A stretch of DNA of 64,000 nucleotides, taken from NCBI RefSeq assembly GCF_003324165.1, contig NW_025407868.1:1-64000 (forward strand). Reading direction: 5' to 3'. Made by a program: the position numbers and the translations under genes. Within the stretch, counting starts at the first letter, position 1. Each line of letters opens with the position of its first letter. Positions 19,834-58,639 of this stretch are shown piece by piece. The stretch comes from Naegleria lovaniensis (Eukaryota; Heterolobosea; Eutetramitea; Acrasida; Naegleriidae). A model generated the notes under the pieces. That model did no database searches. It saw only the letters and a list, made by a program, of their open reading frames with translations, and had not been told where the DNA came from.

Positions 19834-20056
19834 CTGTGACACGTCCAATTTATTGGTGTAGAAGAAGCAAACTTGAAACAGCATTCCTCCAATTTAGGAC
19901 AGACGCTGCATGAAAGTTTTTGAAGAACGAAATGATACGCAGTCGCTTTAGGAAGACACGTTAATACGATGGAATGATTGTTGCTGTTAAAACCTTACAT
20001 AATCCATTAAAAGAAACACCAATCTATTTTCAACTAAAGCTTGGACTTTTTAATTG

Positions 20057-21346
20057 TTACACACCATGGGTGGTCAATAAGTTACGGAGGCGAGAGCACA
20101 TTTTGAATGCGTTGGTTAAATGGTCCAAACCTGCAGAAAAACTGGAAACCTTAATTTTAGACACATACTCTTCACTGAAAAAACCAATTTCGTTATCTTC
20201 TGTAATAAAATGTCTGTGACGAGATTCTGAACTCATGTTGGAATTTTTGAGCTGAGAAGCCGAAGAAGTAGCAATGGATGTGTAACTGATACCATAAACT
20301 CCAACGTGCAGTTGTGAATTGTTAATAGAAAATTCTACAAGAGCTTCTTTCGGTAACCGTGGATGGTACGCTTGCTGAATAAGCTCAATGTTTGTCTTTT
20401 CCGAAATGGAGCTAGATAGTCTGTACTCATCCGTTAAAAATCTCAAACCGCCATACATTGTTAATTGTTCTCGTCCTTGTTGTACAAGTATCATTACGCG
20501 TTCTAAAATGGATAATATTGTTGTCACGTCCCTCTCAATTTTTGATGTTTTAGAAAAATAACTATTATTGTTCATATCCACTTCATTATCCTCATCCCCT
20601 TCCAGAACAATATTCGAACTTTCAGAATATTTCTCAATGTCAATATTCTTCATCTTATTAAGAGCATAGTCTGCCATGTGGTGGGCCCTTTGAACTTGGC
20701 TCAAAGTGTATGGGTCATTTGGTTTAATCTCAGCTTCAAAACTGTTCTTCATCTTGTGTAACTTGAAATTGATTTTTCCACCCAAAATACGATAACCCTC
20801 TACCAATAAATATCCTTTTAGAATGGAATGGTTTTGATCGGTTATATGTAGCTGAATTCTCTCAGCATTAGTACCCTTTCTACTGAAACTGGCATTAAAT
20901 CGGGAGTGTGCAGCTGGTGTGATAGGAGTACGTGGCTCACCTTCGTTTGTAGATGATAAAGCATGATGTTGTTGTTGTACTTCCGATGATCCTAAAGTGT
21001 TTGGTGTGATGGGTCTGTCTGTATTTGGTGTAATGGATCGTTGATGAGGTTCATTATTCGTGTTTGGAGTGATGGATGTTGATGAGGTTCCTCCTTGTAC
21101 CTGTGCATGGAGAGTATTAATCGCATCGTTCAATCCTATGGGATGAGAGGTCATCACTTCACCGCCCAAATGATTAATTGCTAATTGAATTTCCGCAATA
21201 ATTTTACTCCATTGTTGTGGTACTATATTGTATAGAAGATGTTTCAACTCCTTCATCATTGTTTCCTGTTCCAGAGATTGAATCATTTCTTCTTCCGATT
21301 GATGCTGTGGGAGAGAAGGTGATATGCTGGGTGTTGAGTTTATCAT
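20057..21346 (-). CDS. Rogdi/RAV2-like V-ATPase assembly factor
   Basis: 429 aa, single exon. Three blocks resemble Rogdi: an N-terminal helix (ELKHLLYNIVPQQWSKII), a middle LLVEGYRILGGKINFKLHKM with a helix after LSQVQRAHHMADYAL, and a C-terminal LPKEALVEFSINNSQLHVGVYGIS with a final helix pair (LDHLTNAFKMCSRLRNLL). Rogdi/RAV2 is the smaller partner of DMXL/RAV1 in the RAVE complex, which reassembles V1 and Vo sectors of the V-ATPase. A 70-residue Thr/Pro/Asn-rich insert (PITPNT repeats, about residues 88-150) is lineage-specific. The match is by pattern recall; a profile search would confirm. Confidence 0.68.
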   Translation of the reverse strand: MINSTPSISPSLPQHQSEEEMIQSLEQETMMKELKHLLYNIVPQQWSKIIAEIQLAINHLGGEVMTSHPIGLNDAINTLHAQVQGGTSSTSITPNTNNEPHQRSITPNTDRPITPNTLGSSEVQQQHHALSSTNEGEPRTPITPAAHSRFNASFSRKGTNAERIQLHITDQNHSILKGYLLVEGYRILGGKINFKLHKMKNSFEAEIKPNDPYTLSQVQRAHHMADYALNKMKNIDIEKYSESSNIVLEGDEDNEVDMNNNSYFSKTSKIERDVTTILSILERVMILVQQGREQLTMYGGLRFLTDEYRLSSSISEKTNIELIQQAYHPRLPKEALVEFSINNSQLHVGVYGISYTSIATSSASQLKNSNMSSESRHRHFITEDNEIGFFSEEYVSKIKVSSFSAGLDHLTNAFKMCSRLRNLLTTHGV

Positions 21347-21418
21347 TTTTATTTTGATGAAATGAGTTATTAAATTTGTAAAATGTAAATTTTAAATCGA
21401 AAAGCTTCATGTCATTAA

Positions 21419-24133
21419 TTATTTGTGGAATGAATTTGCATATCCTCTGTTTGTTCTGTTTGTTGGATGGGCCTTTTCTGTCGATTTGGCTCTGCTCTGC
21501 ATTGTAGGTGCTCTACTAGTAGAGATGGACGTCATCGAAGTATTTGATGGCTTGGTGTTTGGGCTGCTGCGTTCCTCGATCAGTTTCTTGAGGGTCTCTT
21601 TGCATTGATTATACTCTTTTTGTAAGTTATTCACATATTCTACTGCTTGATGAAGAAGACTTTCCTTTTCTTCAAGTGATGCTTGTAGTTTTCTATTGAA
21701 TTCCACCGAAATATTGAGTTGAATTCGAGTATCTAGTAGTTTAGATTTTGCATCCATCGCGAGAGCAATGTCATGTAAATGTTTCAAAACTTCTTGGCTT
21801 GTATCAAGATCTGATTGTTTCAACAGTCCCATAACTTTTTCCACACCCTGATTGATCTCTGAAAGGGCTGTTCTTGTGCTGACAAGATCTTGTTGCATGT
21901 CCCTAACTACTTCGTTATGAAAGGCTATTCTTGCTGTAGCTTGCTTAATTGCATCATCTGGGTTTTGGGGGTGCCCTTGTCTCAGCTCCTCTCTTTCTGC
22001 CAAAAGGGTTTCTATTTCTTTTTTCATTTCTTCTATGACTGCCATGTGATCGTTTCGTTCTTTGGAAATTGCGTCTTGCAACTCTTTTTTAAAGATTTCT
22101 GCTCCTTCTCTAAGAGACTTTTTTGCAGATTCCAGGCTTTTTTCCAATGCGTCAATCAGCTTTTGTTGTTTTTCAATCTTGAGTCTGGTGTTATCGTTAT
22201 CAATCGACTCAAAGACACGGTTTCGTAATAACTCGTTCTCTTCCTTTAAAATTGTCATTTCCTGCTCATAATTATTAATCTTTTCTTTAAGTTCATTTTC
22301 GATTTTGGCATGTTTCACTTTTTCAATTCGCTCTGTTTCTTCTTGTTCGTACTTTGTTTTCAGCTTTTCGATCAGTTCGTCTGCTTGGTTCTGGAAATGA
22401 TTTGCCATCTCTCTTAATTCATCATTTTCCTTTTCTAGCCTCTCAATTTCGTTAGAATCATCATTGATTTCAGGAGGAGTATCTGTCTGTACTGCTACAA
22501 CAACCTTTTCAGATAAATCTTTTTCTAGCAACTGGGCTAGCTCTTCGCTTCTCTCCAGTAATTGGTTATAATCAGTAGTAAGAGAGGAAAGCTCGTACTG
22601 GTACATTTCTGATTGAGAGTGAAAATGGTTCTTTTCTTTCTCTAGGTCTGCATACTCTTGTTTCAACTTTTCTATCTCAGACTTTTCATTATTTACATTT
22701 TTAAGACTGGTAATTTCTTGATTCAGTCTGTTAATATTGTCCTCCATAGTCCTAATTGTTTGATCCTTATTTTCTATATCCTCCTTCAATTGTTTCACTG
22801 TAGCGCTCTCTTCCATTTCTAACTTGGAAGCTTCAGCCCCGTTTTTTAGCGTCTCTTTAAGCTGTTTTTTCAAATTGGAAATTTCTAATAAGAGACTTTC
22901 AATTTGTTCTTGCTGAGATGATACAAGAACAGCATAGTCATCATCGTTTCCAGTTTTTGAATCGTTTAAATGTTTCTGAATGATAGAGACGGTTTTGTCC
23001 ATGGTCATTACTGTTTTTTCAGAATTTGAAAGCAATTCATTAAGGTTAGATTGATTCTCAAGTAAATTATTGGCATTTTCTTTTTGCTTTCTTTCAAAGT
23101 CTTGAGCGTAAAGCGCTGATATTTCAGCTGTAAGATTGTGATTTTCTTCTTCTAGCTGCGATTTTTCAATGTCTAGTTCCTTCATCTTTTCTTGCTTTTC
23201 TATCAATTGTCTCTTCACTTCATTGAAAGCTTGGTTCATTTCTTCAAGTTCTAACAAGGACCTTGAATACATTTCACGCAACTCCTTGTTTTCCATATTC
23301 AACATTTCTTTTGTAGAAGATATAGAATTATTGTTTGCTTTTTCTTTTTCGAGCGACTCAACACGTGATGACGCATCTTCATACTTATGCCTCCAGCTTG
23401 CGACCTGTTCCAATAATTCTTGGTGTTGGATGTTGGCATTTTCGCATTCCTTTCGGTATTTCTCTTTCTTTTCTTCTAATCTCTTCGCTTCTTTTTCTAG
23501 GTCGGTTAGTGCCTGTTGTAGAGACTCTATTGTTGAATCCTTCATCTTCACCGCGCTTTCTTGATCACGCACGAAATTCCTGTTCGTTTAAAAAATTCAT
23601 AATTAACAATTAATTTATCATCGCTATTTCATACCTTTGCTTGTTCAACTCTTCCTCCGAAACATCTAGCGCGTGGGTAATTGTAAGAACTTGATTTCTA
23701 ATGTTTTCATTTTCCTCTTCCAATAGGTTGATCTGTTCCTCCAGATTTTTATTTCTTTCACTCAAGATTTTAATTTCTTTCAACGCTTCCGATTTATCTT
23801 CTGCTGGTGGTGAGGCTTCTTGCTGCTGATTTTTTCCAATTTTAATCAGCGTGTGTTTCAGTTTTTCAATCTCTTTATCCTTCTTTTCCGATAAGGCTTT
23901 AAGAGATGCAATCTTTTTTGATGATCCTAAATACTCGTAACACGAAATCATCGACCTACCTCTTTCTCAGCAAACATCACCTCTTCAATCACCACAGACA
24001 GATCCTTTTGCTTTTTAGCCAGCTTTTGCTCCAGATCTTTAATCTTTTGTGCCGATAATGAGTCTTCATTTTGATTTGCCGCTGTTGGAACGTTGGTTGT
24101 TTGAGACGAGAGCTTGCTCTTAAGGAAGCTCAT
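21419..24133 (-). CDS. Long coiled-coil protein (golgin/centrosomal type), unrecognised
   Basis: About 876 aa in three exons. The last intron is clear (23580-23634, GTATGA...ACAG). The first junction, near 23927-23960, is awkward: the frame is restored only by a 29-nt intron with a weak GTCGAT donor (23927-23955), or by a one-base sequence error; the better GTAGGT donor would break the frame. Almost the whole length is heptad coiled coil rich in Glu, Lys, Gln and Leu. The C-terminal 50 residues are basic, Ser/Thr-rich and disordered. I see no GRIP or other defining domain. It could be a Golgi tether, a basal-body or a cytoskeletal protein. Confidence 0.75.
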
Positions 24134-24239
24134 TTTTTTGCCTTAATTTCTTTATTGTGGTTGGATCGTTATTGGTACTCGTCGATCATCATTACAAGAA
24201 CCATACTAGTATCAATGCATGAATACAAGTTTGGAGGTA

Positions 24240-25030
24240 TTACATGTAAGGAGAGCTTTGTGAACTTTGCAATTGTTGGTGTGGATGCATTTGATTGGTT
24301 TTATGTGCCTCTCGCACCCCAAAGCAAACGGTACAACTGATGACACCACAACATGCCAATATTGGAACCACCACAGCCACAATCGAGCATATCAGAATGA
24401 CAATGGCAGCTATTACAGAGCCAACAATGACTCCAATGATCCAATCAGCGAAGGCTTGAATCACAGCTCCGCTTACACTCGAAACACTCAGTGTAAATTT
24501 GTTATTTTGTGAAGATGATCCTTTTCCGAATACTCCAATGTAATAGGTGGTGGCTATTTTCATTGGCAACAACAAATCCGTTCAATTAATAAGAATCCAA
24601 AGAACATAAGTGTAGCATGCATGATTAGATTTGGGATGATTTGAATGTTGCCAAGAGAAATGAAACGATTCAAGACAGACTTACCTAATTTCACTCCCAC
24701 AGTTCGCGAATAATTGGACACTATATAGTCGTAATTCGTGAGTGAAGGTTGAGAAAGTCTTTTGAAAACAACCGTTACGTTGTCATTCATACCAATGGAC
24801 ACGGTCAATAGTCGATCGGAATCAACATCCATCGAATACATGTTTGAGTTTCCTCCAGATACAAAAGCAATGACTGTCTGTCCTCCTTTCGAGAGAGGTG
24901 TCACGGTGGTGGATTGAGAGATGGAACGAACCATCGAAAGGGAAAATGCATTGGAAAATCCAATCATGTGAGATAATGCCAGCATGACCACGAAAGCAAC
25001 ACCGCAAGAGAAGATCCGAAAAGATGACAT
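24240..25030 (-). CDS. Secreted/surface protein with signal peptide and one C-terminal TM segment
   Basis: Exons 25030-24685 and 24553-24240 (131-nt intron), 219 aa. Residues 1-28 are a signal peptide (FVVMLALSHMIGFSNA). The ectodomain is about 130 residues with Ser/Thr and N-glycosylation sites. A long hydrophobic segment (WIIGVIVGSVIAAIVILICS) is followed by a Cys-containing juxtamembrane part and a short Gln/Ser-rich cytosolic tail. Type I membrane protein; no family recognised. The next gene upstream (25361-26101) is also secreted and on the same strand. Confidence 0.7.
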
Positions 25031-25360
25031 GTCTCAGAGAGGTGATTGTTGCTTGTTTTTTTTGAAAGCGTGCACTCGAGATGAAATCGATTTGAAGGCA
25101 GTTGACATTTATCAAAATCGAGGAGCTCCACCATTTTCAGAAGGAATTTTGAATCACCAATTGGAATGAGTATGATGCAACGATCAGGTCTAATGAAATA
25201 TGCTCTCTTTGATGTCGACCCAGATCAGGCACTTTTAACATTTCATCAACACTGCAAAGTTTGTGAACTGCTTTTTAATGAGGTTGATCAAAATGTGAAA
25301 TCAGAATTCAAAAGGAAATCCATCATCATTGATGTGAAGGAAGGAACTTGATAGGATCCT
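25031..25360. other. Intergenic, no gene seen
   Basis: 330 bp between two minus-strand genes. A 60-codon plus-strand frame exists but has no coding features and is rejected. Likely promoter plus terminator. Confidence 0.4.
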
Positions 25361-26101
25361 TTAAAATGGTTTACAATTGACATGAATACATTTGTTGGGT
25401 AAATCAAATAATGATGGATCGACCTTACTCGTCTCAAAATTATAGAAATTACTCTCATCCACATAATAACCGCCAGCACTTATTGGCCCATCTGCAAAGA
25501 TTAGCGAACGAAACGGAAAGCATTCATTCTTTCCCATCTTTTCACTATTCGAGATGAACCAATTGTCATGATTCTCTCCAGTATTGGGATTGGTAAGATA
25601 TAAACGAGTCACATTCATTCCAAAGACATTCAAGAGCTGGACGTTCCAATCGTTGTTATTTCCTCCAAAACATTGTTCCAAACCTCCATTGTATAAGGAA
25701 CGACATATGCAATCCGTTCGATTGGCTTTCCAGTAGTACGAATAAAGTACATTTTGATCAATGAATTCGATGGTTGAAGAGTCTAAGGTCATTCCATCGT
25801 TCACATAAACATCTTTTCTCAAGCGTGGTTGACTACGAGTGCTAAATTCAAAGTAAAGGATCTCTTTGGACACACTGAATGGTTTTTGATTGTACGATGC
25901 AACTCGAATTGAACTAAAAGAACCATGAGATGGAAGACAGCAATAACCGTTGTTGTTTTGTTTGGTGGTGGACATGGGTTTAGAGACGATCTGAGAAGAA
26001 GCAACACCTCTTAATATCATCGAGCTCGAAACATGCACCACAAGGTAAGATGTAAGGACAAGACAAAGCAGAGTGGTTGGCGAGATCATGGAAAGTAACA
26101 T
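25361..26101 (-). CDS. Ependymin-like secreted protein
   Basis: 246 aa, single exon, ATG at 26101. A signal peptide (about residues 1-26) precedes the mature part. The layout fits the ependymin (EPDR/MERP) pattern: an early CC-LP motif, paired Cys in the middle (CIC, then C at EQCFGG), NVTRLYL, then ECFPF, a YNFETSKVDP strand and a closing FDLPNKC. Ependymin-related proteins fold as a beta sandwich with a hydrophobic pocket and are secreted or lysosomal; they occur outside animals in several protists. Assignment is by motif spacing and should be checked with the family profile. Confidence 0.6.
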   Translation of the reverse strand: MLLSMISPTTLLCLVLTSYLVVHVSSSMILRGVASSQIVSKPMSTTKQNNNGYCCLPSHGSFSSIRVASYNQKPFSVSKEILYFEFSTRSQPRLRKDVYVNDGMTLDSSTIEFIDQNVLYSYYWKANRTDCICRSLYNGGLEQCFGGNNNDWNVQLLNVFGMNVTRLYLTNPNTGENHDNWFISNSEKMGKNECFPFRSLIFADGPISAGGYYVDESNFYNFETSKVDPSLFDLPNKCIHVNCKPF

Positions 26102-26289
26102 TGTGTTGTTGTGGATTTTTTTGAGTTATGAAATAAGAATACTAAGCATCTTGTTTGAGATTTTGTAACCCGAGGGGTTGAGGTGAGGATTCGGATTTCA
26201 GGAGTTGAAGAATTGTAACAGAAGGATTCGTTAGTTCATGATACCAGAATTTGGAAAGTAAGAGTTTGCAAATAAAAAATGAAACAACC

Positions 26290-28823
26290 ATGATGTCTCA
26301 AGTTCATCACGAGGTGATCATTAATAATTTCAAATACGATGAAAATTCTAGCTCACCGAGTATTCATTGGAGAGAGCCTGTATTTGAATATCGTTATGGA
26401 TTATTTCCTTTCTCAAAGGATGAACTCTTGCTTCATATCCGAAAAGAAATAACGAATATCAATCATCAAAGTACGGCAGAGAAAATTTATTATTCTGATG
26501 AAAATGTGAGAGGAATTTATATGTTTGGCTCTAGGGTTTCGAAAACAAATGTCAATGATTCTGATTTTGACATGCTACTAATAGTTGACGAGTTGCATTC
26601 AGAGATGGCTAAAGAAGGAGGCTATTCAAGTAACATGCAATACATGCTACACTCATCAATTGAATGTGAGGTGAAAAACAAAAGCAGTGGTGTCAATGTT
26701 GTGGAGAAGTTTGAAATTGAAGTGCATTTGATGAGTACATATTTCTTTGTGGAATATGTCTATTCAGAACTTCCAATATTCATGTTGAGCGCCCAACAAC
26801 CAAACGCCGATTATGTTCTGTATGAATGTGCGAGAATGAAACTATGGAGACAACACTGGAATCAATGGTTTCTGAGGATTGCGAGAGCAAAAAATTCTTT
26901 CTTGCACGAATTGAAGTATTGTTTCAACAAATCATCTCGATTTTGGAACGGCTTGAAAAATGGAATTTTCACAACGGATCATGGAAGAAAGAGCGCCTTA
27001 AAAAAGGTGAAAAAGAATTTAGCTCATGGTATAAGGTTGGTATTTATCCATACAATCTTTTCAAACTCAAAATTCCTTTGTCATTTAGGTACTGCAAATT
27101 TGCATATCAAATAGTTTTTGGAGGGTGTATTTATGATTACAAAGAGACAAACAAAGTGTATGATGATATTGTTTTTAACACTGACCATTACAAAACCTGG
27201 GAAGAATACAAAATCCATGCAGAGCAGCATTACAACAAGTGGAATATAGAATTCAAGGATGATTTGAAAAATGTTGTTAAAGATGCTTTGGAGAATATGA
27301 AAAAAATTAGCCCAAAACCTGGATCATTAACTATTGTTGAATTTTTAAATCGCTACTTGGCTTGCTTTAAAGTGAATGGAACGTTTATTGACACCAACAA
27401 TAACGTGATTCTTCGCCATACTTTCGATAAGAATTATTCATTTCAATATTGCCACGGTCCTTTCTCTCTAATGCGACTCTTTGCCATCAATGTAACGCCA
27501 ATTGATTGGCATGACAATCCTAATAAGGCTAAACTATTCAAGCTGAACATGGACTGGAAGTACATCAACTTGGAACTCGCTTCGGTATTTTATGAAGTGT
27601 CATCCTATTTAGAGTGTAATGGAACCATTGTTGGAATTACTAACAAAGATGGAGGTCATGAACAATGCATACAAGTTGAATATTAAACAGCTCTGGAGAA
27701 GAAAATCGTGAGTTGGTTGTACCAAGGATTCGAGTTCGCAGTTCCTGTAAGCATTCCAAGACGTTATTTAGAAGAATATGAAAACCTTTCCAACCGTCAT
27801 GCAAATATTGATTTCACCAAAAATCTCTGCAAATTCTCCATCTATGTGAAACCTAGGGGAATTACATGCGAATTGTTTTATTTCGAAAATCAATGGCATT
27901 TCACTCTCGATACAGAGAAAGAAGAATGGATTTATTGGGTTGCACAACCTAGAGAAAACGACGAAAAAAAGCAATTATTGGGGATGTTGAAACAACTTCC
28001 AAGCGTGGAAGACTCTCATATGACATTTTACTTCATTCTTCAAAAGAAAACAAATCGGCTTATTTTTCGAGGGTGTAGAGATTTAACAACATTGCGTGAA
28101 TGTTATGACTGGAGAAAGTATGGAGAAAAATATGGATGGCAAGACCAGGTAGAACAACTGTCGATTATTGACACGACTAGCGTCTCTGATTTAACCGATC
28201 TAATTAATAACTTTTCTAGATATTCTCCATCTGATTTTGAAGGATTAGAGTTAATTAACTATTCAGAAGAGTACCAAAGCTTTTCCATTCTGTCTTCTAT
28301 TCATGCCAATATACCCAACCTAAGGATATGCAACGCCAACTACATGCTCAATCTTCTTAATCCAGAAATTTTCCAAGATCCTCCTGACGAGCTTACTCAG
28401 TCCAAATATAACGAATCCAGATTATTGAAGGTCATTGTTCAAAGTTTATATGCGCAAGATATCTCTGAAGAATTTGTCATTCAAGAATTGAACCCACTGT
28501 TTCTAGTTCCCTACACAAAGATGAAGACCGCCTATCTTCAACTGTGTGAATTACTCGATCAATTTTATAGGGATAACCTCCTTTCCAAGGAAGGCGATAT
28601 TGAAGCTTTCAATAGCACAGCCATCACCTTTCCTTTAAATCAGAACAAAATCACTGGTCTATTTCACAATCTCAAAAGGTTCTACAAACAAGCTAAGATT
28701 GTGTCAGCATCGAGCTATTGGAAAAATTTATTTATTTACAATGCTGAAGGAAAGGATTTTGTCTCACAGTCACGCTGTTTACTTGATCTACTATCCGCTT
28801 TCGAGAAGCTGCAAAGCAAGTGA
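26290..28823 (+). CDS. Nucleotidyltransferase-like protein (large C-terminal region unrecognised)
   Basis: Model: exons 26290-27035, 27089-27615 and 27691-28823; introns 53 nt (GTTGGT...TTTAG) and 75 nt (GTAATG...ACAG with a TACTAAC branch-point-like box at 27638-27644). Total 2406 nt, 801 aa, in frame. The second intron removes an in-frame TAA at 27684-27686; without it the gene would split in two. Residues about 75-150 carry a pol-beta-type NTase signature: MFGSR, then DSDFDMLL, then a third acidic strand EIEVHLM. Substrate unknown (nucleic acid or small molecule). The C-terminal 370 residues match nothing I know. A second, 5'-truncated copy lies after the N gap. Confidence 0.62.
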
Positions 28824-29281
28824 GACATTTCCAATGTTAATAGTCAATTAATTATCTTTGTTTTAATTAAATTAAAAACGCTTTGAGTTTTTAACAAGAT
28901 ACATCGAGCTGTGTACGTCAAAGTGGGAACATGTCCAAGCATGAATTCAGGTAATCGTTGTAAGGAAAAACCAGTGATAATTTGTTAAACAGTAACTGGT
29001 TTTCAGATATGCTGCTAAATTGAATTGTACATATTGGTAAGAAATTTAGAAGGAAACACAGTGGTTTAACTCGAGCCAAAGTTTGCCAACGAGTTTGTTG
29101 GTTGCCTCTCGCCCTGCTGAAACCACCATGTGTAATTTGAAAAGAACTAGTTCAGAGTAAATATTTGAATTGTGCAAGATCGAGAACTGCGTAGAGAAAA
29201 TTATCATCACACACCTAAAAATAAAATAAAGGGAGTTCATTTGAAAGACACCAGCAAAACAAAAAAAATGGCATCTGAATC
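27589..29281 (+). repeat. Copy A of a 1.7-kb repeat (empty-site allele)
   Basis: From 27589 this sequence recurs at 29793 with a constant offset of 2204, covering the 3' part of the nucleotidyltransferase gene, the intergenic region and the first UBA3 codons. The only difference I see is a missing G near 29178 compared with the second copy. Here the sequence runs on directly into UBA3 without an insertion. Confidence 0.9.
28824..29267. promoter_or_regulatory. UBA3 upstream region (intergenic)
   Basis: About 445 bp between the nucleotidyltransferase stop and the UBA3 ATG. It must hold the UBA3 promoter and 5' leader. No motif is distinctive; the leader ends in eight A residues running into the ATG. 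The same sequence at 31028-31472 is now separated from intact UBA3 by the LINE. Confidence 0.45.
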
Positions 29282-29782
29282 AACTCCAAGCATCACTGCC
29301 CCTTTCTCTCCCGAAATTGAAGCAGAAAGATGGAAAGATCTCGATTACATTCTCAAACGATCAGGTCCATTTGCTCCAGAGGATTTCCAAGCAGGAGAAG
29401 AAACCAAACAATTTTTACAAGATACCTGTAAAGTTTTGATTATTGGAGCTGGTGGTCTTGGATGCGATCTCGTCAAAAACTTGGCAATGAGTGGATTCCG
29501 TTCAATTGATATCATTGATATGGACACGATCAGTACTAGCAATTTGAACAGACAATTTTTGTTCCGTGATGGTGATGTAGGAAAGATGAAGGCTGAAGTT
29601 GCTGCCAAGTTTGTGAATGAGCGTGTGGCTGGTGTAAAAGTAACACCACACATTTGTGCCATTCAAGAGAAGGACAAGGACTTTTACAGACAATTCGGAA
29701 TCGTGATTGCCGGTTTGGATTCAATTCCAGCCCGTAGATGGATCAACTCAACTCTTCTCTCCTTCATTCAATACAATGATGA
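29268..29782 (+). CDS. UBA3: UBA3, uninterrupted 5' part, cut by assembly gap
   Basis: Identical to the first 171 codons of the complete gene at 36451 (through the GAGGLG nucleotide-binding loop and the [12 protein letters not shown] block) and then lost in Ns. It keeps its natural upstream region with no transposon. It is partial because a contig ends here, not because of a mutation. Most likely the other allele of the gene at 36451. Confidence 0.85.
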
Positions 29783-29792
29783 NNNNNNNNNN
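29783..29792. other. Assembly gap (10 Ns)
   Basis: A run of exactly ten unknown bases, a typical scaffolder placeholder for a gap of unknown size. Sequence after it restarts 2.2 kb back in the preceding sequence, which suggests overlapping contig ends that were not merged. Confidence 0.98.
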
Positions 29793-31027
29793 TTTATGAA
29801 GTGTCATCCTATTTAGAGTGTAATGGAACCATTGTTGGAATTACTAACAAAGATGGAGGTCATGAACAATGCATACAAGTTGAATATTAAACAGCTCTGG
29901 AGAAGAAAATCGTGAGTTGGTTGTACCAAGGATTCGAGTTCGCAGTTCCTGTAAGCATTCCAAGACGTTATTTAGAAGAATATGAAAACCTTTCCAACCG
30001 TCATGCAAATATTGATTTCACCAAAAATCTCTGCAAATTCTCCATCTATGTGAAACCTAGGGGAATTACATGCGAATTGTTTTATTTCGAAAATCAATGG
30101 CATTTCACTCTCGATACAGAGAAAGAAGAATGGATTTATTGGGTTGCACAACCTAGAGAAAACGACGAAAAAAAGCAATTATTGGGGATGTTGAAACAAC
30201 TTCCAAGCGTGGAAGACTCTCATATGACATTTTACTTCATTCTTCAAAAGAAAACAAATCGGCTTATTTTTCGAGGGTGTAGAGATTTAACAACATTGCG
30301 TGAATGTTATGACTGGAGAAAGTATGGAGAAAAATATGGATGGCAAGACCAGGTAGAACAACTGTCGATTATTGACACGACTAGCGTCTCTGATTTAACC
30401 GATCTAATTAATAACTTTTCTAGATATTCTCCATCTGATTTTGAAGGATTAGAGTTAATTAACTATTCAGAAGAGTACCAAAGCTTTTCCATTCTGTCTT
30501 CTATTCATGCCAATATACCCAACCTAAGGATATGCAACGCCAACTACATGCTCAATCTTCTTAATCCAGAAATTTTCCAAGATCCTCCTGACGAGCTTAC
30601 TCAGTCCAAATATAACGAATCCAGATTATTGAAGGTCATTGTTCAAAGTTTATATGCGCAAGATATCTCTGAAGAATTTGTCATTCAAGAATTGAACCCA
30701 CTGTTTCTAGTTCCCTACACAAAGATGAAGACCGCCTATCTTCAACTGTGTGAATTACTCGATCAATTTTATAGGGATAACCTCCTTTCCAAGGAAGGCG
30801 ATATTGAAGCTTTCAATAGCACAGCCATCACCTTTCCTTTAAATCAGAACAAAATCACTGGTCTATTTCACAATCTCAAAAGGTTCTACAAACAAGCTAA
30901 GATTGTGTCAGCATCGAGCTATTGGAAAAATTTATTTATTTACAATGCTGAAGGAAAGGATTTTGTCTCACAGTCACGCTGTTTACTTGATCTACTATCC
31001 GCTTTCGAGAAGCTGCAAAGCAAGTGA
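29793..31027 (+). CDS. Second copy of the nucleotidyltransferase gene, 5' part missing at contig edge
   Basis: Same sequence as 27589-28823, including the in-frame TAA (at 29888-29890) and the proposed intron around it. The 5' two exons are absent because the contig starts here. Treat as the allelic copy of the gene at 26290, not as a pseudogene or a paralogue. Confidence 0.75.
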
Positions 31028-31465
31028 GACATTTCCAATGTTAATAGTCAATTAATTATCTTTGTTTTAATTAAATTAAAAACGCTTTGAGTTTTTAACA
31101 AGATACATCGAGCTGTGTACGTCAAAGTGGGAACATGTCCAAGCATGAATTCAGGTAATCGTTGTAAGGAAAAACCAGTGATAATTTGTTAAACAGTAAC
31201 TGGTTTTCAGATATGCTGCTAAATTGAATTGTACATATTGGTAAGAAATTTAGAAGGAAACACAGTGGTTTAACTCGAGCCAAAGTTTGCCAACGAGTTT
31301 GTTGGTTGCCTCTCGCCCTGCTGAAACCACCATGTGTAATTTGAAAAGAACTAGTTCAGAGTAAATATTTGAATTGTGCAAGATCGGAGAACTGCGTAGA
31401 GAAAATTATCATCACACACCTAAAAATAAAATAAAGGGAGTTCATTTGAAAGACACCAGCAAAAC

Positions 31466-31486
31466 AAAAAAAATGGCATCTGAATC
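31466..31486. repeat. 5' target-site duplication of the LINE
   Basis: Eight A residues followed by TGGCATCTGAATC, the UBA3 start region. The same 13 bases with an A-run reappear at 36452-36464 directly after the element's poly(A). The duplication is 13 to 21 bp; the exact length is hidden by the A-run. Confidence 0.88.
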
Positions 31487-31507
31487 TTCGAGGAAAAAAA
31501 ATAACAC

Positions 31508-31526
31508 AACACCTCCGCTAGGTGTT
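31508..31526 (+). other. Hairpin 1 in LINE 5' leader
   Basis: Perfect 7-bp stem AACACCT/AGGTGTT around a 5-nt loop, 21 nt from the element's 5' end. Could protect the 5' end or act in translation or integration. Confidence 0.6.
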
Positions 31527-31615
31527 CACATTGAGCACCCTCTAACATCTACCCAAAGAACCTATCTCCGAATCATTAAAATTATATTTAAAACTTATCT
31601 CTCCCTCTCTGCAGA

Positions 31616-31640
31616 GTACTGTACTAATTTAGTACCGTAC
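31616..31640 (+). other. Hairpin 2 in LINE 5' leader
   Basis: Imperfect inverted repeat: GTAC-t-GTACTAA facing TTAGTAC-c-GTAC, one mismatch. It lies about 60 nt before the first ATG of ORF1. Confidence 0.55.
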
Positions 31641-31701
31641 AACTATCACCCGTTATAAATTGTGACCGTTGTGATCAAACTGTAATCGAGACCCTATTAC
31701 G

Positions 31702-32082
31702 ATGGCAGTTATTAAAATCAAAGCACCAATGACCGAATGGTATTTAATCAGAACTACAAGATCAGTCTCTTTATTCAAAGACAATGCAATTAGGATAATC
31801 AATAGGATCGGTAAAATAAGATCCAATCGTACAGAACTTGGATCAAAACGGAGTCTGAAACTGGACATAGGATTTAGAGAATTGACAAACACCATCAAGT
31901 CTGATAATGAAGAATTAATGATTACCAATAGGATTGCAACTCGAGCTTTCTTATATGACTGTACAAAGGATTGTACCAACAGGAAGAAATATGAAGATGA
32001 AATTGAGGAATGCCACAAAAAGCTTAAATTATTATCTCACTTCAGTAGCTCCAGAATTATCTATTCTAACTCTCAATATTAA
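31702..32082 (+). CDS. LINE ORF1 (126 aa), unrecognised
   Basis: Begins at the first ATG of the element after the 5' leader. The product is basic (many Arg and Lys) with no zinc knuckle or RRM visible, so it does not look like a standard ORF1 nucleic-acid chaperone, though its charge would fit RNA binding. It overlaps the start of ORF2 by about 130 nt in another frame, which suggests frameshifting or termination-reinitiation for ORF2 expression. Confidence 0.6.
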   Translation: MAVIKIKAPMTEWYLIRTTRSVSLFKDNAIRIINRIGKIRSNRTELGSKRSLKLDIGFRELTNTIKSDNEELMITNRIATRAFLYDCTKDCTNRKKYEDEIEECHKKLKLLSHFSSSRIIYSNSQY

Positions 32083-35000
32083 TGGTCTCAGAGCAGAACC
32101 ATTATCAGCCCTAAAAGGCTACCTCAATTCAATCACTCCTGATATAATCATGCTCCAGGAAGTTAAAAGCGTCTATATTGGTCCAGATTTTCCCTCTATA
32201 TATTATTCTTCATTTACGTATTATCATGATCCAAGAGATTCATGTGGTGTATCTATTTGCCTTAACAAAAGTACTTTCAAAGATATTGAAGAAATCATCT
32301 TAGATCCGATCATTAGAAGTAACGCGCGAATTATTGGAGCGAAATGTAAAGTCAATTCGATCAATACTCTAGTTATTTCTGCGTACTTTCCAAACCAACC
32401 AGCTGACAGATGTGAATTCACATATATTCTTGACGACCTAATTGAAAAATATCCTAATCACAAAATCATTATTGGAGGTGATTATAATGCAATCTTATCA
32501 GAGAATCACTCCTCAAATGAATCCAGAAGAACTGATCAAAATATATTAGATCTTATTAACAAGAGAAATCTTAATTACTATCCTTTCCCACATTTATCAT
32601 GGCACCTTCATTATACTATTAACAAACAATCCAAGTCTATAATAGACTACATATCCACAGATTTTCCTATTGCATCTGGTGAAGTATTGAATGCCAATTT
32701 CATATCAGACCACAAAATGGTTAAAATTCTACTTGATCTCTCATGTCAACGAACACCTTTGTTAATTCGAAAGAAACGTAACTTCCAAGATCCCAAAAAT
32801 AAGAAAGAAGTGTTGGCCATTAGCAAAGAATGTGTATCTCAAGTTAAGAATTTAGAAACTGATAACGACAAATGGCTTTTCATTTGTGATAAACTAGGCG
32901 ATAAATTTGTGGAGGTCAATCCACCTAAACTTGATCCTAAAATCTACAAATATAATAAGCAATACAAGAAGCTCATGTTAATACTTGATAGAAGTGAGCA
33001 CGGATATCCTTGTGACAAGTTATTGGCCACTATCGGTAAAACTTTAGAACAGGTTCCAAAATGTCTAGCAAGTGTCAAAGAGAAGATCAAGAATCATATC
33101 AAATGGAGCCATGACAAGGCTTTGAATAGGAAGATGAAATGGTGGGAACAGAATTATGCAACCAACTCTAAACACTTGCGAAAGAAAATTTACAAAACAT
33201 CATCACCACCATACAAATTATCTATTGACGGAACTGAAATTAATGACCCCAATGAAGTTGCCAATGTGATCAAGGACAAATATCAACAAAATCTCAACTT
33301 TAGAGGAAGGAATCATCAAATTGACATTACCAAGTTTTTCAAGCACAAACATCCATTAATTGATAATTGCAATGACAAAATACTCGGTAGAATTACCACG
33401 GAAGAGAAAGAATGGATAATTCAGAATTTAAAATCCACAGCACCCAACGAACTAGGTTTAAGACAAAAAACCATCAAATACATGTGTAAAGAATTACAGG
33501 AGGAAATTTTTCAAATTATTGAAAATATCATTACTACTGGATTTACTCCTGAATCAATGCAAAGTGTCAGCATTCTCCCAATTCACAAAAAGAATAAGGA
33601 CCACTCAAACCCTGCTAACTATAGACCTATTGCCCTCATGGACTCAGGACTTAAAATAGCTACTAAATTAATCACCAAAAGATTGAAGGAAGTTTTAAAG
33701 GGAAGATTATCATTAGCTCAATTTGGTGGTGAAGACGGCAGAGAAACTATTCACAGAGTTCTTTCAATTTACAATATGATTGCTTGGGCAAAAAAGGACA
33801 AGAAACCTTTTTACGGTTTGGCTGTTGACATCAAAAAAGCTTATGACTCATTACCGAGAATTATGCTTCGAGATGGACTGCTTTTCTTAGGGATTGATGA
33901 AATTACTGCTGATGGAATTCTGGAAATATTAGGTGAATCTACGACAAAGTTTGTTATACCTAATGGTAAATCAGAATGTTTCACTGTGAAAGATGGATTG
34001 AAACAAGGTGACACCTTCTCTCCCCTTGCATTCAAAATTGCACTTGAGCCTCTCTTACAATTTTTAGAAATAACATATAATGGTGCTAGTGTTGCAAATT
34101 ATTGGAACATTAGTACAGGCGCATGGATTGATGATTTGAATTCATTTTCCAATGAATTACCTGAAATTGAAAATTCTTTGCATGACATTGAAACCTATCT
34201 CCATGGCTATCACATGGAATTAGATCATTCCAAAACTAACCTCTTCTCCGATAAGGAATGTAGTATCAAGACATTATCTGGAAGTACGATCAAAAGTAAT
34301 GATTCTGTTATTATACTAGGTAATAATATTACCAATAATACTGAGGAACAAAAGAAATACACTACTTCAATTATTGAAGAAGTTAAAAGAAGAACTAACT
34401 CTATTGGCTGGAATTTTCCAATACAAAACATTGTCAAAATTATCAACACAGACATTGTTCCGTATGCACTGTACCACCTAATTCCTCTCGCTAATGACCA
34501 TCTAGAGAAACAAATTGATAAATTCCTTCGCAACTTTATATGTGAAAGATTAAGAACCAAGAGAAAATTAGCTCTCGAGTGGTTTTATACTCATCAAGAC
34601 AAAGGTGGACTTGGATTAATTTCTGTTCAAGAAATGAGTTACTCGGACCTAATGTGTAAAGTCAGAAAGTTCCTTGAACAATATGATATCTGTCTTGGAT
34701 CTTCTACAAGATTCCTTTGTGAACGAATCAAACAGGAGCATGGTTTTGACATCCTCAATGATCCAATCCCTACTTGGTATAAACCAGACCCATGGATTCC
34801 TCAATATCTCAAGAGAATAATTTTCATGAACAAATCTTCCAATATTAGATTGTGGCATTCGAGTGACCAATGGCATGAAAAAACTCTCATCCCTTATGGA
34901 AAATTCCCTAAAGGTTTAAGACAATTCCTGCTCTACAAAGATTGGAACAGATTAAGCATGTGGGTTCCTGACCCTAAAAATTTACAAGTGAAATTACATG

Positions 35001-36193
35001 ATGATATCAAACATTCCAATCATATCACCCAGATTCGCAACATTCTCAATAGCATGGATTTTGGAAAAATCAAAGACGAGAGCAAATACTACAAATATGT
35101 TGGTAACAACACATCCCTGTCAAACCTCTTGAACAAAGCTACACTAATTGGTACTGACGGATCATGTAACAATAATATTGCTGGTTACGGTATTGTAACT
35201 GATCAGAATGTTTCCATCTCAAGTCACACCTTAGGACAAGGAACTGCCTACAACAGTGAAGTTCAAGCACTCCACACAGCTGTTAGATTGCTAGATAACA
35301 ACACTCCTAGAACAATAGTCATAGATGCGAAAAGTATTTATGACCAACTTTTCCAATTCAGAAAATCTAGAGATCCTTATGTTGAAGAAATTCGTAATTA
35401 TTTAAAAGTGAAGGATCAGATCAAAATTATGCATGTTAATAGTCATACAGGTAAACAAGATATCTATAGCCGTATAAATGAATTAGCAGATAGGGCTGCT
35501 AAGAAAGGTGCTGATTGTAACAATATTCTTACTAATATTCCATCCAATAATTGGTATATTATTATCAACAATGTATTATACACTCAAAACACTAGACAAA
35601 CAATGTACAAACTTCTATTTCAACACCTCCACAAAAGAACATACACGCCAAAGAACCTTCCTCCCAAGAACAGAAAGTTCACCAACATTTACCCCTCAAT
35701 AGGAATCGGTTTCAGAACCATAAATCTAATATTTAAAATTAGAGTGAACGTGATGAAGACTTTGGAAAATTTAAACAAGATATCCAAGACGAACTTGCTA
35801 TGTCCTTGCTGTAGTAGAGAGACAATGCAACACATTATTTTTGAATGTAAATACTATAGTGATATAAGAAAAGAAATGTTTAGGAATTTATATAATATCT
35901 CAATATATGCAAAGAATAACAGGAAATTCTCCAAACGACTATTGTACCTCATCAAGACTAAGCAAGATATCCATAGCCTAACAGGTGCTAAAGTTGGATT
36001 GGGTAAGAAATGGGACAAAGTATTTACCAAGGAAGCTTATCGATCTATTACTAAAATGTGGATGAAACGAAATCATTTTTTCATGGAAGAATTGAAACTC
36101 ACCTGGAATGAATTTGAACAACAATACGATTTTAATCCCAATTTCATTGATTTGAACAAGTTTAAACTATACATGAAATACCCACGACCATGA
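31955..36193 (+). CDS. LINE ORF2: endonuclease, reverse transcriptase, RNase H, zinc motif
   Basis: 1412 aa from the first in-frame ATG (31955). Endonuclease/EEP domain (about residues 35-260): NINGLR, LQEVK, GGDYNA and SDHK, so the key Asn, Glu, Asp and His are present. RT (about 535-800): ILPIHKK, NYRPIAL, motif A AVDIKKAYDSL, motif B LKQGDTFSPLAF, motif C WIDDL (YADD position, both catalytic Asp kept, Tyr-Ala replaced by Trp-Ile). RNase H (about 1060-1190): GTDGS, NSEVQAL, IDAKS, then NSHTGK and NELAD. The zf-RVT-like CPCC...H...C follows at about 1283. No stop or frameshift: apparently functional. Codon use is as AT-rich as the host's. Confidence 0.93.
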   Translation: MTVQRIVPTGRNMKMKLRNATKSLNYYLTSVAPELSILTLNINGLRAEPLSALKGYLNSITPDIIMLQEVKSVYIGPDFPSIYYSSFTYYHDPRDSCGVSICLNKSTFKDIEEIILDPIIRSNARIIGAKCKVNSINTLVISAYFPNQPADRCEFTYILDDLIEKYPNHKIIIGGDYNAILSENHSSNESRRTDQNILDLINKRNLNYYPFPHLSWHLHYTINKQSKSIIDYISTDFPIASGEVLNANFISDHKMVKILLDLSCQRTPLLIRKKRNFQDPKNKKEVLAISKECVSQVKNLETDNDKWLFICDKLGDKFVEVNPPKLDPKIYKYNKQYKKLMLILDRSEHGYPCDKLLATIGKTLEQVPKCLASVKEKIKNHIKWSHDKALNRKMKWWEQNYATNSKHLRKKIYKTSSPPYKLSIDGTEINDPNEVANVIKDKYQQNLNFRGRNHQIDITKFFKHKHPLIDNCNDKILGRITTEEKEWIIQNLKSTAPNELGLRQKTIKYMCKELQEEIFQIIENIITTGFTPESMQSVSILPIHKKNKDHSNPANYRPIALMDSGLKIATKLITKRLKEVLKGRLSLAQFGGEDGRETIHRVLSIYNMIAWAKKDKKPFYGLAVDIKKAYDSLPRIMLRDGLLFLGIDEITADGILEILGESTTKFVIPNGKSECFTVKDGLKQGDTFSPLAFKIALEPLLQFLEITYNGASVANYWNISTGAWIDDLNSFSNELPEIENSLHDIETYLHGYHMELDHSKTNLFSDKECSIKTLSGSTIKSNDSVIILGNNITNNTEEQKKYTTSIIEEVKRRTNSIGWNFPIQNIVKIINTDIVPYALYHLIPLANDHLEKQIDKFLRNFICERLRTKRKLALEWFYTHQDKGGLGLISVQEMSYSDLMCKVRKFLEQYDICLGSSTRFLCERIKQEHGFDILNDPIPTWYKPDPWIPQYLKRIIFMNKSSNIRLWHSSDQWHEKTLIPYGKFPKGLRQFLLYKDWNRLSMWVPDPKNLQVKLHDDIKHSNHITQIRNILNSMDFGKIKDESKYYKYVGNNTSLSNLLNKATLIGTDGSCNNNIAGYGIVTDQNVSISSHTLGQGTAYNSEVQALHTAVRLLDNNTPRTIVIDAKSIYDQLFQFRKSRDPYVEEIRNYLKVKDQIKIMHVNSHTGKQDIYSRINELADRAAKKGADCNNILTNIPSNNWYIIINNVLYTQNTRQTMYKLLFQHLHKRTYTPKNLPPKNRKFTNIYPSIGIGFRTINLIFKIRVNVMKTLENLNKISKTNLLCPCCSRETMQHIIFECKYYSDIRKEMFRNLYNISIYAKNNRKFSKRLLYLIKTKQDIHSLTGAKVGLGKKWDKVFTKEAYRSITKMWMKRNHFFMEELKLTWNEFEQQYDFNPNFIDLNKFKLYMKYPRP

Positions 36194-36195
36194 AT

Positions 36196-36350
36196 AATAA
36201 TTGAAATTTACAACAATATTTGAAATTAACACTAACCTTGATGACAAAAACAATAATTGAAATTTACAACAATATCTGAAATTAACACTAACCTTGATGA
36301 CAAAAAAAATAATTGAAATTTACAACAATAATTACACTAACTTTGATGAC
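36196..36350 (+). repeat. 56-bp tandem repeat in LINE 3' UTR
   Basis: Units start at 36196, 36252 and 36308 (each beginning AATAATTGAAATTTAC), period 56 bp. The third unit has an internal deletion of about a dozen bases, so there are about 2.7 copies. Tandem 3' UTR units are common in some LINEs and may be recognised by the reverse transcriptase. Confidence 0.85.
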
Positions 36351-36439
36351 ATGAACCACCTTTAACTGCACTAATTGCACACACAGCCATGAATAACGTT
36401 TGAATTTTCGAACAAATAAACGCATGGACAGTGATTATT

Positions 36440-36464
36440 AAAAAAAAAAAATGGCATCTGAATC
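36440..36464. repeat. LINE poly(A) and 3' target-site duplication
   Basis: Eleven A residues of element tail run into the ATG of UBA3, then the 13-base duplicated target (36452-36464). The last A of the run is the A of the start codon. Confidence 0.88.
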
Positions 36465-37818
36465 AACTCCAAGCATCACTGCCCCTTTCTCTCCCGAAAT
36501 TGAAGCAGAAAGATGGAAAGATCTCGATTACATTCTCAAACGATCAGGTCCATTTGCTCCAGAGGATTTCCAAGCAGGAGAAGAAACCAAACAATTTTTA
36601 CAAGATACCTGTAAAGTTTTGATTATTGGAGCTGGTGGTCTTGGATGCGATCTCGTCAAAAACTTGGCAATGAGTGGATTCCGTTCAATTGATATCATTG
36701 ATATGGACACGATCAGTACTAGCAATTTGAACAGACAATTTTTGTTCCGTGATGGTGATGTAGGAAAGATGAAGGCTGAAGTTGCTGCCAAGTTTGTGAA
36801 TGAGCGTGTGGCTGGTGTAAAAGTAACACCACACATTTGTGCCATTCAAGAGAAGGACAAGGACTTTTACAGACAATTCGGAATCGTGATTGCCGGTTTG
36901 GATTCAATTCCAGCCCGTAGATGGATCAACTCAACTCTTCTCTCCTTCATTCAATACAATGATGAAGCAAAGACTGAGGTGGATATGAGTTCAATGATCC
37001 CATTGGTTGATGGTGGTACTGAAGGATTCAAAGGTCAATCAAGAGTCATTTTGCCAGGTGTTACAGCTTGTTATGAATGTACTTTAGATTTGTTCCCTAC
37101 CGATGAGACAAATTATCCAATGTGTACTTTGAAGACAACTCCTCGTTTGCCTGAACATTGTATTCAATATTGTTATATTGAAGAATGGCGTAACACAAAG
37201 GGAAAGGAAGGCATCGCCGATGATGAACAAGTTGATGGAGATAATCCAAGACATGTTCAATGGATCTATGAAAAATCAGTAGAACGTGCAAAGAACTTTG
37301 GTATTGCTGGTGTTACTTATCGTTTAACACAAGGTGTCATCAAGGGTATCATTCCTGCAATTGCATCAACTAATGCTATTATTGCTTCATCATGCACAAA
37401 CGAAGCCTTCAAATTGGCCACTTTCTGTCTTCCATTCTTGGATGACTACATGATGTACAACGGAAGTGAAGGAATTTACACTTTCACCTACAAGAACATG
37501 AAGAAGGAAGGATGTTTACAATGTGGTCCTGATGGTATCGCAAAAACAATTAATTGTTCTGCTGACATTACATTGAACGACTTCAGAGATTTATTAAGAA
37601 CTGACAAATCTATTCAATTCAACAATTCATCATTGCGTGATTTGACAAATGAAAAGACGCTCTATTTCACCAAACCAGCCACATTGAGACAAATGACAGA
37701 ACCAAACTTGAACAAGAAGCTCAAAGAATTGTTCAGCACTGGTACAGAACTCTACGCCACTGACACTGAAGTTATTGCTGATCGTGGTGTTACTTTGATC
37801 GTCAATTTTACAGACTAA
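36451..37818 (+). CDS. UBA3: UBA3, NEDD8-activating enzyme E1 catalytic subunit (complete)
   Basis: 455 aa. The adenylation domain starts with [13 protein letters not shown] (nucleotide loop) and [16 protein letters not shown] (ATP-contact Asp, Asn, Arg). Zinc pairs CYEC and CLQC are both present. The catalytic Cys lies in YPMCTLKTTPRLPEHCI at about residue 224, matching human UBA3. The last about 90 residues form the ubiquitin-fold domain that recruits UBC12. With APPBP1/NAE1 the enzyme adenylates NEDD8 and forms the thioester needed for cullin neddylation. The coding region is intact, but on this allele the ATG lies directly after the LINE poly(A), 5 kb from the native promoter. The start codon is the duplicated target copy. 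Confidence 0.95.
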   Translation: MASESTPSITAPFSPEIEAERWKDLDYILKRSGPFAPEDFQAGEETKQFLQDTCKVLIIGAGGLGCDLVKNLAMSGFRSIDIIDMDTISTSNLNRQFLFRDGDVGKMKAEVAAKFVNERVAGVKVTPHICAIQEKDKDFYRQFGIVIAGLDSIPARRWINSTLLSFIQYNDEAKTEVDMSSMIPLVDGGTEGFKGQSRVILPGVTACYECTLDLFPTDETNYPMCTLKTTPRLPEHCIQYCYIEEWRNTKGKEGIADDEQVDGDNPRHVQWIYEKSVERAKNFGIAGVTYRLTQGVIKGIIPAIASTNAIIASSCTNEAFKLATFCLPFLDDYMMYNGSEGIYTFTYKNMKKEGCLQCGPDGIAKTINCSADITLNDFRDLLRTDKSIQFNNSSLRDLTNEKTLYFTKPATLRQMTEPNLNKKLKELFSTGTELYATDTEVIADRGVTLIVNFTD

Positions 37819-46429: not shown

Positions 46430-46710
46430 GATGGAGTGAGATGGTATCTGTAACATCGCTTGGATGGCTCGCATGAAGAAATGAAGGAAGACGAAGGGGT
46501 GAATAAATACTTGGTGCACCAAATTGTACTGGCTTTGTGAGGTCATTAAATCATAATGTCCAAAACAAGGACCATATTCACTGGTGCAGAGAATGGAACA
46601 GAGTTCATTGGTACCAATTTGAGGCATTTTCACACAGAGATCTTCATAGTTAGGACCTACCAAACTAAAAAGGAAGGTACTATTTTCCTCAAACGCTTTG
46701 AGACCAGGCT
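46430..46710 (-). pseudogene. TLDc domain fragment
   Basis: A minus-strand piece reads ENSTFLFSLVGPNYEDLCVK, then CTSEYGPCFGHYDLM, matching the second half of the TLDc domain in the gene at 42504 (TFLFSLVRSNGEKTAVK ... AGYGPTFGGGNDLL). It has neither an N-terminal half nor a start. Its upstream edge is exactly where the 78-bp RGS-START repeat begins (46711), so that end looks like a rearrangement breakpoint. Confidence 0.55.
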
Positions 46711-46788
46711 CATGTGGGATTTGAATGGAACGAGAAGTGAAAAAATTTTTAGAGAAATTTGTAAAGATCCTTATTCGAATTTTACATT
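46711..46788 (+). repeat. 78-bp copy of RGS-START coding sequence in its own 5' flank
   Basis: Exact duplicate of 48535-48612, same orientation, about 125 bp before the RGS-START ATG. It keeps the coding frame of the source and is open through to the gene's start region. Confidence 0.9.
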
Positions 46789-58542: not shown

Positions 58543-58639
58543 ATAAAAGTGGCGCAGTTTTTGCATGCAAAAACTGGCGATCATAGGTAGTCGTACCTAG
58601 GCCAGTTTTGGTAACAGGCAAAAACTGCTCCACTTTTAT
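58543..58639. repeat. Nested inverted repeats (foldback element or structured RNA)
   Basis: Outer arms 58543-58564 and 58618-58639 pair over 22 bp with one mismatch. Inside are a 22-bp perfect palindrome built on CAGTTTTTGC (58555-58576), arms AAAACTGGC (58570-58578) and GCCAGTTTT (58601-58609), and an innermost TAGGTA/TACCTA hairpin (58584-58599). The motif CAGTTTTTGC thus occurs in alternating orientation. Three nested stems could fold into one long hairpin or a cruciform. Not coding. Confidence 0.75.

Follow-up and report, generated by a model that had tools for sequence, protein, structure and literature searches.

Empty and LINE-filled UBA3 start-codon sites beside a probable assembly join in Naegleria lovaniensis

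The trypanosomatid elements ingi and L1Tc are, like the element described here, RNase H-bearing long interspersed nuclear elements (LINEs) of a discobid host; they possess a site motif. More generally, APE-type LINEs with RNase H (I-group-like) encode endonuclease (EN), reverse transcriptase (RT) and RNase H in a single open reading frame (ORF), ORF2, end in a 3' A-run, are flanked by target-site duplications and leave 5'-truncated copies. In draft assemblies, uncollapsed alleles (haplotypic duplication) appear as overlapping contig ends that are placed in tandem across Ns. We analyzed a window of 64,000 nucleotides of Naegleria lovaniensis (contig NW_025407868.1, positions 1 to 64,000, hereafter C47; GC content 36%), in which a LINE of this architecture interrupts the start of UBA3 and the upstream flank of UBA3 is present twice. 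The LINE resembles I-group-like elements in domain architecture. It differs from them in its ORF1, which is limited to 126 aa and has no Pfam match, and in its insertions, which appear to cluster at A-tract-ATG start codons. The overlapping ends differ by the LINE and not by substitutions, unlike those of the usual uncollapsed-allele duplication. According to the excerpted text of PMC5006619, TRE5/TRE3 and Dp_NLTR-A of Dictyostelium likewise insert without damage to coding sequence in an amoeba genome that is dense in genes; however, they choose the flanks of tRNA genes, whereas the sites here are the start codons of protein genes, where the codon is rebuilt by the duplication.

Empty and filled sites of one LINE insertion at UBA3

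When the window was compared with itself using BLAST, the two flank copies (Table 1) aligned at 99.94% identity over 1694 columns with 0 mismatches and a single gap, G in one copy versus GG in the other. The initial annotation had described this repeat with one extra base in the second copy, and the alignment agrees. Further, positions 29256-29782 aligned with 36440-36965 at 99.81% over 527 columns, again with 0 mismatches and 1 gap. A substitution-free match of such length is far beyond chance. Flank copy 1 holds the target site of the LINE once, without an insert, and is the exact empty site; flank copy 2 is the exact filled site of the same insertion. Between flank copy 1 with its piece of UBA3 and the complete UBA3 lie 10 N (the sole N run of the window), flank copy 2 and an intact EN-RT-RNase H LINE.

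A perfect 21-bp target-site duplication, which the initial annotation did not contain, surrounds the LINE. The duplicated sequence consists of an A-run followed by ATGGCATCTGAATC and includes the start codon of UBA3, and the 455-codon ORF of UBA3 is therefore intact behind the LINE. The LINE lies in codon 5 (ATG GCA TCT GAA TC, then the element), as previously proposed; the broken UBA3 piece, for which 514 matching bases had been claimed, comprises 515. The complete ORF is UBA3-like, with ThiF and E2_bind domains (Pfam), and matched solved chains of the NEDD8 E1 catalytic subunit (E1C) with E ~1e-138 over residues 21-439. It is the only full-length UBA3 that we found in this assembly, where no second UBA3 locus was detected beyond the two places on C47; the other matches were two short, weak ones.

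A target-site duplication of this kind is a trace of target-primed reverse transcription. By this process, a single LINE would have inserted into the A-tract that immediately precedes the UBA3 start codon and over that codon itself. Duplication of the 21 bp would have put the A-tract and the start codon on both sides, so that the UBA3 ORF was restored downstream of the element, whereas the original start codon and the host 5' flank came to lie in front of it. We infer this mechanism, and any effect on the expression of UBA3 or of the LINE, from the arrangement of the sequence.

The LINE is a new element of a known LINE kind. Its ORF2 scored above the Pfam cut-offs for Exo_endo_phos_2 (4.7e-9), Exo_endo_phos (1e-6) and RVT_1 (3.2e-24), and RNase_H (1.6e-8) lies C-terminal to RT; residues 1240-1302 matched zf-RVT below its cut-off. 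The 3' end is an A-run, and no long terminal repeat was detected in the window self-BLAST. Thus, the APE-like EN before RT, the target-site duplication, the 3' A-run and the existence of 5'-truncated copies are those of an APE-type LINE, and the RNase H domain after RT is that of the I group. ORF2 is free of stop codons in all three long copies of the family (C47, C65 and C22), which differ at 9/6, 16/11 and 17/13 synonymous/non-synonymous positions in pairwise comparison (rough dN/dS 0.17-0.19, with the neutral expectation taken from plain site counts). The differences are biased to synonymous sites, and therefore the LINE lineages were probably copied while the ORF2 protein was functional. 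The insertion at UBA3 had also been called recent, for which the perfect duplication and the intact ORF2 provide loose support. A 56-bp stretch within the 3' tandem repeats of the element is missing from the C65 and C22 copies.

A short repeat lies upstream of UBA3 in both flank copies (29038-29102 and 31242-31306) and is similar to 23 other places listed at ~78-91% identity. When seven copies were aligned, a core of ~45 bases proved to be strongly conserved. It is possibly SINE-like or regulatory. An Rfam scan of the window at the gathering threshold returned no family, this repeat included, and a search of the window for tRNA genes detected none; thus no RNA-gene target was found there.

Probable assembly join and alternative explanations of the tandem

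Both edges of the repeat coincide with the gap: flank copy 2 begins straight after the Ns, partway through an ORF, and the UBA3 match of copy 1 ends straight before them, within UBA3. Further, the whole of contig C65 (92,014 bases) contains the flank only once and from it enters the LINE at the same 5' junction, with an A-run that is one base shorter. Two more 10-N gaps in the loci retrieved also occur at LINEs and add support, one at C22:459957-459966, 86 bp before the C22 copy, and one (C64:36122-36131) inside a related element; since these loci were chosen largely for their LINEs, the count is biased. We infer that the tandem is, with high probability, an assembly join of two overlapping contigs and that the apparent gene duplication is artefactual. 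Contig X (window positions 1-29782, empty) and contig Y (from 29793, LINE-filled) would overlap by ~2.2 kb and would have been set in tandem with a 10-N spacer, without a true tandem duplication. In the excerpted text of PMC6125883, the published N. lovaniensis assembly (FALCON/Quiver) has 18 duplicated BUSCOs, against 4 in each of two further Naegleria, which is the pattern that uncollapsed alleles would give.

It is very unlikely that a real duplication of ~2.2 kb occurred in tandem and that the LINE then entered the second copy only. The assembly is written in this order, and the absence of substitutions between the copies suits a very recent event. However, the junction of such a duplication must fall exactly in the 10-N gap, the flank is single in C65, and the truncation of both copies, one starting within an ORF and the other stopping inside UBA3, argues against it.

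C65 is collinear with C47 positions 17744-29281 (99.1% over 9945 columns and 98.7% over 1539) and differs from flank copy 2 by 16 substitutions in 1632 flank bases (~1%; the list was compiled by hand). There were 0 substitutions between copies 1 and 2 over ~2.2 kb, compared with 16 in 1632 for C65, and copies 1 and 2 therefore represent one flank haplotype. The states observed are thus A-empty, A-filled and B-filled, in which A is the haplotype of the two copies and B the diverged haplotype of C65. The initial annotation had proposed two overlapping haplotype contigs placed in tandem; the overlap and the tandem placement are supported by the empty and filled sites and the single flank of C65, but the picture of two haplotypes fits only in part, since copies 1 and 2 share one and C65 is filled. 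In C65, the 57-base in-frame stretch at 27686-27742, which contains a stop codon, is missing, and two ORFs are fused there into one of 646 codons.

Several points weigh against a join of two ordinary alleles. Copies 1 and 2 have no substitutions although the A flank and that of C65 differ by ~1%, and the three states do not fit a plain diploid heterozygote. Behind the LINE, C65 enters an F-box-like gene and not UBA3, and is thus not a clean allele. Further, no duplicated flank was found beside the 10-N gap on C22, and the count of gaps at LINEs is biased as noted above. C17 opens with 30 N.

The three states could be due to extra ploidy or aneuploidy, to a mixed culture, to movement of the LINE from one homologue to another, to its precise loss, or to polishing in which reads were mixed. 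Naegleria is mainly a heterozygous diploid, with some aneuploidy, in the other strains covered by the excerpted text of PMC9928731. For precise loss, the filled allele would have lost the LINE through recombination between the 21-bp duplications, giving the empty copy 1, and the tandem would still be an artefact. Copies 1 and 2 share a flank haplotype while the diverged C65 is filled, so that the filled state may be the older one in this strain. However, LINEs are rarely lost precisely, and homologue transfer, aneuploidy, a mixed culture or blending of the consensus would give the same pattern; we regard precise loss as highly improbable.

C65 may itself be mis-joined; it is either a mis-join through the LINE or the product of recombination between two LINEs. 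In the latter case, C65 would be a true chromosome that arose by ectopic recombination between the UBA3 LINE and a LINE of the F-box-like gene, a translocation that also broke the assembly at UBA3. C65 carries the 5' flank of UBA3 before, and the F-box-like gene behind, a single LINE, and C36 holds the empty start-codon site of that gene. Between the LINEs of C47 and C65 there are 20 substitutions, a lower rate per base than in the flanks (Fisher 0.011). Their distribution is uneven: the first 1760 bases contain 2 and the other 3137 contain 18 (Fisher 0.017, with the breakpoint set after the data were seen), as would be expected of a chimeric C65 LINE. On the other hand, the mean read length of the published assembly was 6893 bp (excerpted text of PMC6125883), little above the 4.95-kb LINE, and to explain C65 by a mis-join within this repeat requires less. 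We regard such a translocation as unlikely; it is compatible with an artefactual join at UBA3.

The F-box-like gene scored just below the Pfam cut-off (F-box-like, 3e-5; 24.1 bits versus 24.3). Its allele on C36 is interrupted by a 1.2-kb repeat (C36:50920-52101) whose inverted ends are similar to each other; C65:36880-38060 is a 99.7% identical copy of this repeat. The upstream flank of the C36 gene gave only two short 71% matches on contigs other than C36.

Neither the truncated UBA3 nor the second copy of the gene upstream of it should be taken for a paralogue, and wherever a 10-N join lies at a LINE in this genome, it has to be checked.

Table 1. Features of the UBA3 locus in the window and insertion sites of the LINE and of a related family.
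Feature	Contig	Position	Strand	Description
Flank copy 1	C47	27589..29281	+	Upstream of UBA3, continues directly into UBA3; empty allele, putative end of contig X
Empty target site	C47	29260..29281	+	A-run then ATGGCATCTGAATC; bounds approximate
UBA3 ORF, 5' part	C47	29268..29782	+	515 bases, cut by gap
N run	C47	29783..29792		10 N, putative contig join
Flank copy 2	C47	29793..31486	+	Putative start of contig Y; ends at LINE
21-bp duplication, 5' copy	C47	31466..31486	+	Carries original UBA3 ATG
Short ORF	C47	31473..31658	+	61 codons; original UBA3 ATG and first codons, into LINE 5' region
LINE	C47	31487..36439	+	Full-length when compared with the other two long copies; 3' end placed to within a few A
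ORF1	C47	31702..32082	+	126 aa; overlaps ORF2 in a different frame
ORF2	C47	31955..36193	+	1412 aa; endonuclease 38-256, reverse transcriptase 543-769, RNase H 1061-1186
Short tandem repeats	C47	36193..36351	+	LINE 3' region
21-bp duplication, 3' copy	C47	36444..36464	+	Rebuilds UBA3 start codon
UBA3 ORF, complete	C47	36451..37818	+	455 aa, downstream of LINE
Insertion site	C47			A-run-ATG-ORF; UBA3, 455 aa
Insertion site	C36/C65			A-run-ATG-ORF; F-box-like, 466 aa in C65
Insertion site	C22			A-run-ATG-ORF; 362 aa, CFAP21/EFHB-related (1.4e-9)
Insertion site	C14			A-run-ATG-ORF; 174 aa, without Pfam match
Insertion site	C3			Exception: AAAAAAC-ATG, then 6-codon ORF
Insertion site	C54			Exception: AAAAATAATT, no ATG
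Related family, site	C64			Not ATG
Related family, site	C40			A-tract-ATG, ORF of 12 codons; 3' junction only

Elsewhere in the window, the self-BLAST detected an 82-base direct repeat (46707-46788 and 48532-48612, 98.8% identical) and an imperfect palindrome of 78% identity (58543-58639).

Insertion sites of the LINE family

A DNA search detected the three long copies, two 3' fragments (C14 and C3) and two diverged remnants on C49 (77-79% identity), neither of which provided a usable junction. A 23-base pattern from the 3' end, with up to 3 mismatches allowed, was found at six places and added C54; this count misses copies that lack the 3' end and are too short for the DNA search. The copies on C14, C3 and C54 are 5'-truncated and retain the 3' end only. 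Target-site duplications were seen at five of the six insertions, and the F-box-like site provided a 3' junction and an empty allele only. The N. lovaniensis repeats are classed as DNA, LTR and non-LTR in the excerpted text of PMC6125883, and this LINE may be present in the repeat library of that study.

Four of the six insertions are located at A-tract-ATG starts of ORFs and two (C3 and C54) are not (Table 1). As background, we used 1076 tracts of at least five A on both strands of 175,966 bases of this genome. TG follows the tract in 90 cases, and in 24 an ORF of at least 100 aa starts there; among the tracts outside ORFs, 22 of 380 are ORF starts. The probability of at least four in six was 3.6e-6 relative to all tracts and 1.5e-4 relative to the non-coding tracts, and, at other ORF limits, 4.0e-4 (60 aa) and 6.2e-5 (150 aa) relative to the latter; these post hoc values are flattering because the pattern was noticed before testing. 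When the related family (C64 and C40) was added, four of eight sites were ORF starts (P 6.5e-4).

A second, distant LINE family (C31:285801-289041 and others, with 11 matches at 99-100% identity) encodes an EN-RT ORF and ends in GTATTTTT. Since it ends in a T-run, it serves as a control for a different target chemistry. Of its 15 matches we took 14, leaving out C3:376434, where the match ends short of the 3' end. ATG was located directly at the junction in none of the 14, and a few bases beyond it in some.

Survivorship may contribute to this distribution, in that insertions in coding sequence tend to be lost. The preference for start codons is thus a lead and not proof. The literature excerpts returned by our search contained neither a LINE that targets start codons nor an account of this element. 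Tentatively, and with less than even confidence, we suggest that this is a low-copy LINE family whose endonuclease prefers A-tracts ending in ATG and which, in the compact genome of this amoeba, thereby homes to the points where protein genes begin translation. Under such homing, the duplication would restore the start codon behind the element and spare the ORF, and the host promoter and 5' leader left in front would drive the LINE. If this is true, the translation start itself would be a safe and transcribed landing site that can be read from the sequence, in addition to the safe sites offered by rDNA and by the flanks of tRNA genes.

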